Assembly (NCBI GenBank): GCA_947494335.1
Contig: CANLUT010000007.1
Span: 1-64,000, forward strand
Source of the DNA: Oligoflexales bacterium
GTDB taxonomy: Bacteria; Bdellovibrionota_B; Oligoflexia; Oligoflexales; RGVZ01
DNA length: 64,000 bases
Direction of reading: 5' to 3'
Shown: positions 11,260 to 12,026 of the stretch, piece after piece
Layout of the letters: each line of letters starts with the position of its first letter
How positions within the stretch are numbered: position 1 is the stretch's first letter
Notes under the pieces: model-generated
What the model was told of the DNA's origin: nothing
Database searches by the model: none
The model's input: the letters and a program-made list of their open reading frames with translations, nothing else
Made by a program: the position numbers and the translations under genes

Positions 11260-11502
11260 TTACAGACCGAGACGTTGTCCGATCCTGGACACTAAATTAC
11301 CCAAGCAATCGTCTACTGACTTACCGCTGACGGACTCAACAAAGCTATTGCGATCCGTAGAATGCTCTCCGTGGCCTGTGAAGGTCCCATCACTGAATTC
11401 GTCGATTTCTAATTGATAAGTCACGCCCTTCACCATGTAAGTGAAGTTGTGGACTTTGAATAACTTGCCCCCGGCGTGAACTTTAATATCTTTCCATGAC
11501 AT
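11260..11502 (-). CDS. Small conserved-looking protein upstream of NamZ-like gene
   Basis: 80 residues, not recognised. It is soluble, with no signal peptide; the N-terminal half reads as beta strands (SWKDIKVHAGGKLFKVHNF, then YQLEIDEF) and the C-terminal part as an amphipathic helix ending SRIGQRLGL. A proper ribosome-binding site AGGAGA lies 8 nt before ATG 11502, supporting a real gene. Just 17 nt separate it from the NamZ-like gene, so the two are probably co-transcribed. It could be a regulator, chaperone or accessory protein of that hydrolase, but this is context only. Confidence 0.6.
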   Translation of the reverse strand: MSWKDIKVHAGGKLFKVHNFTYMVKGVTYQLEIDEFSDGTFTGHGEHSTDRNSFVESVSGKSVDDCLGNLVSRIGQRLGL

Positions 11503-11635
11503 GAGGATTGTCTCCTGGGAATTTTTTGCTTGTGCTGATCAAACTATTAATGACTTTTAGAACTGACCTCTAGTTTACGTTATTTGGACATATCTAGTCC
11601 ATAAACCGGCAAGATTTCAGTAACATGCATCATCC

Positions 11636-11665
11636 TTGCTGTATTGAGTCGTCTTTTGGTAAGAT
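11636..11665 (+). promoter_or_regulatory. Possible promoter of the structured RNA
   Basis: TTGCTG (11636-11641), 18-bp spacer, TAAGAT (11660-11665). If used, the transcript would begin within the perfect hairpin at 11670-11690, giving an RNA with a protected 5' end. The match is weak and the placement is the main support. No gene is visible in the flanking sequence 11503-11635. Confidence 0.3.
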
Positions 11666-11721
11666 AGTAATGAGGTCACAAAGACCTCATAGACTATACG
11701 TCTAGGAAAGGAGGTGGTGCT

Positions 11722-11772
11722 GTGGGTTGTTGTAAACAAAACCCTAGTAGCGCGGAGGTGCGTGTCTCTTAG
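11722..11772 (+). CDS. Possible 16-residue peptide inside the structured RNA
   Basis: GTG at 11722 is 7 nt downstream of AAGGAGG, an ideal distance, and opens a 16-codon frame MGCCKQNPSSAEVRVS ending at TAG 11770-11772. The adjacent cysteines and lysine are notable for so small a peptide. The ribosome-binding site matches the complement of the 16S 3' end over 10 nt, stronger than any other gene in the window. The reading frame overlaps two RNA stems, so it may be a leader peptide, a tiny functional peptide, or chance within a non-coding RNA. Confidence 0.35.
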   Translation: MGCCKQNPSSAEVRVS

Positions 11773-11797
11773 CTGAGACATCGGACCTGAAAGCTAC

Positions 11798-11856
11798 CAA
11801 CCGGCTCCCCTCCTTTCACAAATGGTTTCTTGATGGGGATGCCGGTTGCTCTTTTT
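11798..11856 (+). terminator. Intrinsic terminator of the structured RNA
   Basis: Stem CAACCGGC (11798-11805) with GCCGGTTG (11841-11848), extended by TCCCC (11806-11810) with GGGGA (11835-11839) across one bulged T, followed by CTCTTTTT (11849-11856). It separates the RNA from the carboxypeptidase gene at 12027. Confidence 0.8.
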
Positions 11857-12026
11857 CCACCCCTCCTCATCCCTATATGTCGCCCTATTAGACAGTGTGG
11901 ACCTTTTAGCCATCCCAAGACCGCTTCAATTGATATAACTATCTAATATAACTTAATAAATTTTCATAAGCTTTCCTTATTTTATGGCACTGCTCTTGCA
12001 ATCATACAGGCAAGGAGCCTAATGCC

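Follow-up and report, generated by a model that had tools for sequence, protein, structure and literature searches.

The intergenic gap at positions 11503-12026 of the window (the whole 64,000-nt stretch of DNA analysed here, from a draft genome of the order Oligoflexales with homologous contigs titled Oligoflexus, Pseudobacteriovorax and Oligoflexales) raises the question of what the RNA predicted within it does: whether it regulates a neighbouring gene, specifies a peptide or acts as an RNA in its own right. The gap is 524 nt long, as given in a preliminary description of this DNA, and is flanked by an 80-codon ORF on the minus strand (11260-11502) and an M14-peptidase-like gene on the plus strand (from 12027). 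The 80-codon ORF has a DUF1343-like gene as its neighbour; some ten Oligoflexales genomes conserve the pair, and the ORF has the look of a genuine gene for a small protein. Folding of 11666-11856 gave -80.3 kcal/mol compared with -54.9 ± 4.4 kcal/mol for shuffled sequences (z = -5.7; 0/200 shuffles as good), which confirmed the highly structured RNA described for this interval. The RNA gene spans 11670-11856, and the gap contains, in plus-strand order, promoter-like boxes, hairpins P1 and P2, a Shine-Dalgarno sequence (SD1), P3, a mini-ORF, a second Shine-Dalgarno sequence (SD2), P4, a copy of the anti-SD sequence and a terminator:

11636-11665, plus strand: putative sigma-70-type promoter read from the sequence (TTGCTG at 11636-11641, 18 nt, TAAGAT at 11660-11665).
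11670-11690, plus strand: P1 hairpin, ATGAGGTC/GACCTCAT, an 8-bp perfect inverted repeat at the probable RNA 5' end.
11691-11703, plus strand: P2 hairpin, AGAC-UAUAC-GUCU, immediately 5' of SD1.
11704-11716, plus strand: SD1, AGGAAAGGAGGTG, with 11 nt complementary to the 16S rRNA 3' end.
11717-11753, plus strand: P3 hairpin with the start codon, GUGCU (11717-11721)/AGCGC (11749-11753), upper stem GGGUU/AACCC.
11722-11772, plus strand: mini-ORF, MGCCKQNPSSAEVRVS, 16 codons with a GTG start and a TAG stop.
11754-11760, plus strand: SD2, GGAGGTG, within the mini-ORF, ending 9 nt 5' of the stop and masked in P4.
11747-11797, plus strand: P4 hairpin, GUAGC/GCUAC base, AGGU/ACCU and GUGUCUC/GAGACAU, with the stop codon in the loop; the base shares bases with P3.
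11809-11817, plus strand: anti-SD copy, CCTCCTTTC, which mimics the 16S 3' end, shares bases with the uppermost part of the terminator stem and is the exact complement of 11706-11714 in SD1.
11798-11856, plus strand: intrinsic terminator, CAACCGGC(U)CCCC / GGGGA(U)GCCGGUUG and then a U-run, identified as an inverted repeat and in the predicted fold.

Within the window, the promoter-like and terminator sequences are the features that bear on stand-alone transcription. A TANNNT box was kept at the place of TAAGAT in every same-genus copy (TAAACT, TAGACT, TACAAT, TATAAT, TAGAAT); the putative promoter at 11636-11665 was not found by a consensus promoter scan, and the evidence for it is therefore graded as moderate. 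The strong terminator of the preliminary description is present, with arms at 11798-11810 and 11835-11848 and a U-run after them; a simple terminator scan of the window missed it because of its long loop. A terminator follows most family copies, with a different sequence in some.

Homologues were gathered by blastn, by covariance models and by a pattern scan of named genomes. Using 11640-11900 as the query, blastn identified all five same-genus genomes at 79-88% and about a dozen genomes of other families at approximately 75% over the core. Covariance model R1 located the element in 28/43 Oligoflexales genomes with one copy each, bearing out its conservation in related genomes, and a second copy was present in one genome. 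A second, diverged copy from family f6 (L049, G025:C18:72441-72550) lies in an unrelated context and has an intact ORF (MTSFDNSSMEVRTS). Scanning 84,980 named species genomes for the pattern returned Oligoflexales, three Bdellovibrionales metagenome-assembled genomes (MAGs) and one distant MAG, Centralia_MAG_338. Pattern matches in Crocinitomicaceae (L086), Gemmataceae (L090) and eight viral contigs were rejected as due to chance: they fall inside coding DNA, and the stop is absent from all of them. Model R2, which spans SD1 to the stop and was built from Oligoflexales, three L070-type copies and L080, revealed one copy each in 65/291 genomes of the Bdellovibrionota group, and in the third phylum it matched 6/7 genomes of the class of Centralia_MAG_338 and 15/400 of its phylum. 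Two families gave no match in the covariance searches, f11 of the order Oligoflexales and f12 of the class to which this order belongs. The element is thus conserved in three phylum-level groups of a genome set in which Oligoflexales and the Bdellovibrionota group were sampled as separate phyla; in the NCBI taxonomy, Oligoflexia belongs to Bdellovibrionota. A second conserved block, GTGGGGGGGCGATGTTTCAAC...GTTGAAGCATGGATGCTTCGCATCGTCCTTTTTT, was observed approximately 150-250 nt 3' of the element in the three Bdellovibrionales MAGs (L070 on the minus strand, L075 and L089), and resembles a further small RNA that has a terminator of its own.

Rfam gave 0 matches above the gathering threshold for the window, HD100 and third-phylum loci, and the matches seen at relaxed thresholds (HCV stem-loop, E 7.6; MicX, E 0.19) were dismissed as noise. 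Genome G384, which we take to be that of Bdellovibrio bacteriovorus HD100 and whose coordinates agree with those of APsRNA2, contained a single R2 match (535,202-535,270, plus strand, E 7e-5). This match falls on the same strand inside APsRNA2, a 134-nt RNA at 535,188-535,321 (plus strand) with a mapped transcription start site and an RPKM of 8,869 in the attack phase compared with 204 in the growth phase (Karunker et al. 2013, PMC3627812, Table 2). The published start coordinate falls precisely on the base with which P2 begins, and P1 is absent from the HD100 member. Judged by position and strand, the HD100 member of the family is the published APsRNA2, with which the window RNA shares a terminator-ended, predicted stand-alone form and the locus of its HD100 homologue, where the transcription start site lies at P2. 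Since APsRNA2 is a mapped transcript, the family is transcribed as a separate RNA at least in HD100 (PMC3627812). The published account differs in that APsRNA2 is non-coding there and Bdellovibrio-only, its authors having found no significant homology for the APsRNAs outside B. bacteriovorus (PMC3627812); it mentions neither the ORF and the two SDs nor the wide distribution. A full-text literature search found no later paper naming APsRNA2. The preliminary statement that the RNA belongs to no known family is accordingly right for Rfam, but overlooks this published member. Taken together, these comparisons identify the window RNA as one member of a deeply conserved, stand-alone small-RNA family that was previously unrecognised. 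What is new is the family and its conserved reading frame; one member was already known as an orphan transcript, and this orphan predator sRNA is now joined to homologues in three phylum-level groups, with a precise and testable anatomy.

The most conserved feature of the family is the mini-ORF, which the preliminary description had left unnamed. A purely non-coding structured RNA with an accidental ORF would agree with the strong conserved helices P2-P4 and the folding z-score; this reading is refuted statistically and retains next to no probability. In 94/94 copies (79/79 from Oligoflexales and Bdellovibrionota and 15/15 from the third phylum), a start codon (ATG, GTG or TTG) 4-12 nt 3' of the SD1 GGAGG opens an uninterrupted frame of 12-23 codons, which ends at a stop exactly three codons past SD2 (GGAGGUG). 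The identical test in the other two frames gave 0, and this is despite SD1-SD2 loop lengths that cover all three values modulo 3, the start shifting and the frame being preserved. All three stop codons are used (56 TAG, 33 TAA, 5 TGA), and the TGA codons in the third phylum rule out the possibility that UAR is an RNA motif instead of a stop codon; among viral-contig sequences that fit the DNA pattern by chance, 0/8 had the stop. The first 20 loci were picked by blastn and are hence unbiased as to the ORF. R1 and R2 contain the stop columns, which introduces some bias for the weakest matches only; the strongest matches are independent of these columns and the blastn set is free of them.

To assess the strength of the two SDs, we compared them with the 16S rRNA 3' end (GGATCACCTCCTTTC / GGAUCACCUCCUUUC), which was confirmed in HD100 and in two genomes of the order; the 16S end of the window genome was not found in its draft genome, and relatives of the order were used instead. 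The match of SD1 had a family median of 11 nt, and exact GAAAGGAGGTG occurs once in the 64-kb window, at SD1. SD2 matched over 7-8 nt, which exceeds nearly all genuine SDs in the window, where 41 long ORFs had matches of 4-6 nt and at most 8. Together with the frame, start and stop kept in every copy, the length of the SD1 match strongly supports, at the level of sequence, the earlier suggestions of a tiny frame and of a small RNA that contacts ribosomes. The distance from the SD1 GGAGG to the start was mostly 7-8 nt; that from SD2 to the last sense codon was always 8 nt, and the SD2-stop distance was invariant in 94/94 copies. With the stop codon in the A site, the GGAGG thus lies 8 nt from the P-site codon, and a ribosome at the stop would be placed as at initiation.

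The helices surround these elements. Pairing of P1 was kept among same-genus copies and its sequence was variable. P2 showed compensatory changes from G-C to A-U at two pairs, with 100% of cells paired in 18 sequences. For P3, 93% of cells were paired across three phyla and native 3' arms outfolded swapped arms in 65/79 copies; covariation of P3 across the three phyla was not above that of shuffles, because its arms hardly vary. Native 3' halves of P4 outfolded swapped halves in 68/79 copies, with several pair types per position. The pairs proposed earlier at 11747-11751/11793-11797 (GUAGC/GCUAC) exist, and are replaced by compensatory UCGC/GCGA in the same-genus loci L029 and L035. The partners to which SD2 is paired in P4 vary from clade to clade, and the stop codon lies mostly in the P4 loop in Bdellovibrionota copies. 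At least 4/6 SD2 bases were paired downstream in 88/94 copies compared with 66% when the motif was grafted at random positions in these loci. In the predicted folds, the P4 hairpin masks SD2 around the stop.

A conserved frame could point to a small mRNA whose functional product is a secreted or intracellular peptide of 12-23 amino acids. Conservation of frame, start and stop in all copies favours this reading, as does the recurrence of peptide sequence inside single clades (DITKAEV in Bdellovibrio-like copies; MDSSH...CTEV in the class of Centralia_MAG_338), but we consider it unlikely. Peptides diverge freely among copies (MGCCKQNPSSAEVRVS, MVKNVDITKAEVTSS, MVSLPSTEVRMP, MDDSHSYSSGIRCTEVTAN), their length varies and the N-terminal part is not conserved. 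The recurrent EV is SD2 itself, and in three copies (L028, L170, L183) Glu is replaced by Gly where GGAGG becomes GGGGG, which argues that the SD2 RNA with its purine run is kept and not the amino acid. The other recurring residues sit in the arms of P3 or P4 and change along with their pairing partners, as in L029, where PSS becomes PCR and the 3' arm of P4 changes to match. The residues conserved within clades coincide with SD2 and helix arms, and across clades only residues encoded by SD2 and by the P3 and P4 arms recur.

The preliminary description had centred on a pseudoknot between SD1 and the terminator loop, which might switch the RNA between translation of a tiny frame and sequestration. 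GAAAGGAGG (11706-11714) and CCTCCTTTC (11809-11817) are indeed exact 9-nt complements; the chance of such a complement in approximately 190 nt is, by our own estimate, about 0.07 and thus only mildly improbable on its own, and the pseudoknot is absent from the predicted minimum-energy structure. At the terminator, however, 6-12 nt of 16S-like sequence were kept in 20/29 Oligoflexales copies, compared with 6-8 nt in 19/50 Bdellovibrionota copies, and the sequence was missing in several families. The proposed switch is present in many Oligoflexales copies; as a core mechanism we reject it, since the pairing is lost in other Oligoflexales copies, reaches at most 6-8 nt in Bdellovibrionota and is not family-wide. 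SD1/anti-SD pairing looks like an added layer.

These C-rich sequences bear on a further explanation, a trans-acting anti-SD small RNA in which target mRNAs would be bound at their SDs by the 3' arm or loop, the RNA's own SDs and ORF serving only to control how exposed the arm is. Runs of the CCTCCTTTC type reach 12 nt in many Oligoflexales copies and are shorter elsewhere, the P4 3' arm is complementary to SD2 and would be freed by translation, and APsRNA2 is regulated with the attack phase (PMC3627812). Against this, the anti-SD run is missing in several families, there is no known target and the fixed SD2-stop distance would go unexplained, and we hold this explanation to be quite improbable.

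The anatomy of the element, with its terminator, resembles that of a leader peptide, and in the window's genus and several relatives an M14 gene lies downstream on the same strand; a cis-acting attenuator for the downstream gene (the M14 carboxypeptidase gene in the window) could account for both. The position of the element is syntenic within much of the order Oligoflexales, but the next gene varies and includes M14, spermidine synthase (convergent), Xaa-Pro aminopeptidase, ketoacyl-synthase-like and other genes (names assigned by reading translations), with the unrelated cheA in HD100, and downstream genes are convergent in families f6 and f3. Furthermore, the HD100 RNA ends at its own terminator as a transcript of approximately 134 nt (PMC3627812). 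The tie to M14-peptidase genes is thus not borne out: because the neighbouring gene varies in family and strand, the element is not a leader of the M14 gene and a cis-regulatory role is unlikely, leaving attenuation largely refuted and very improbable. In L055 and L060 (family f3), the element is flanked on one side by the beginning of the S10 ribosomal-protein operon together with rpsU and on the other by purF/purL, and its strand is opposite to that of both. In L052, L053, L059, L062 and L066-L068, from several families, an Orn (oligoribonuclease-like) gene ends directly upstream on the same strand, and co-transcription of this gene with the RNA is possible at those loci.

The explanation we favour, at somewhat better than even confidence, is a ribosome-engaging small RNA on which ribosomes would load at SD1 and be retained by SD2 once they reach the stop. 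A 30S subunit would load at SD1, and translation of the 12-23 codons would melt P3 and P4. At the stop, SD2 would lie where it could pair with the anti-SD of 16S rRNA in the geometry of an initiation complex, so that a terminating or post-termination ribosome would be held on the RNA and the 3' half would stay open. The likely purpose would be to park or to titrate or count ribosomes, or to expose the C-rich 3' arm to the SDs of other mRNAs; in many Oligoflexales, the anti-SD copy would re-mask SD1 when the RNA is ribosome-free. Attack-phase induction fits a role in non-growing cells. Counting against ribosome engagement, both the start and SD2 are masked by the helices P3 and P4, and translation may be low. 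Recent profiling found no general pausing at SD-like sequences inside genes (reviewed in PMC7829197), and holding at SD2 must therefore rest on the strength of SD2 together with the stop codon. The fuller proposal, of a new class of ribosome-engaging sRNA older than the split of several phyla, in which SD2 locks the terminating ribosome, the peptide is irrelevant and the RNA parks or counts ribosomes, is tentative and in our estimate falls short of even confidence. Through its invariance in 94 copies, the SD2/stop geometry serves as a natural test of whether terminating ribosomes can be retained by an SD that precedes a stop, a point in dispute for SD-like sequences. If the SD2/stop lock is real, this would be a new kind of RNA. 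The family also suggests one way in which a predator that is not growing might manage its ribosomes.

Several known systems share part of this anatomy. The prfB (RF2) frameshift site also carries an SD-like element at a fixed distance 5' of a stop; there, a spacing of approximately 3 nt between the SD and the P-site codon induces +1 frameshifting within a protein-coding gene, whereas here the spacing is 8 nt, the stop is normally UAG or UAA and no frame continues. The TnaC, ErmCL and TrpL leader ORFs similarly combine a tiny ORF, a strong SD and translation-meltable helices with a terminator right after them; in contrast, the family described here has no conserved downstream gene, a short stand-alone transcript and no conserved peptide. 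Peptide-coding or dual-function small RNAs include RNAIII, SR1 and SgrS. The likeness to this class (PMC5521070) lies in a small, structured, stand-alone RNA with a short, translated-looking ORF; in those RNAs the peptide or the seed is conserved, whereas here it is the ribosome-binding geometry, the frame and the stop.

Stop codon choice was also skewed. In the 79 Oligoflexales and Bdellovibrionota copies the stop was TAG in 50, TAA in 29 and never TGA, compared with TGA in 25-42% of nearby genes, and a link of this bias to release factor 1 is conceivable. The last sense codon encoded Ser in 44 of these 79 copies.
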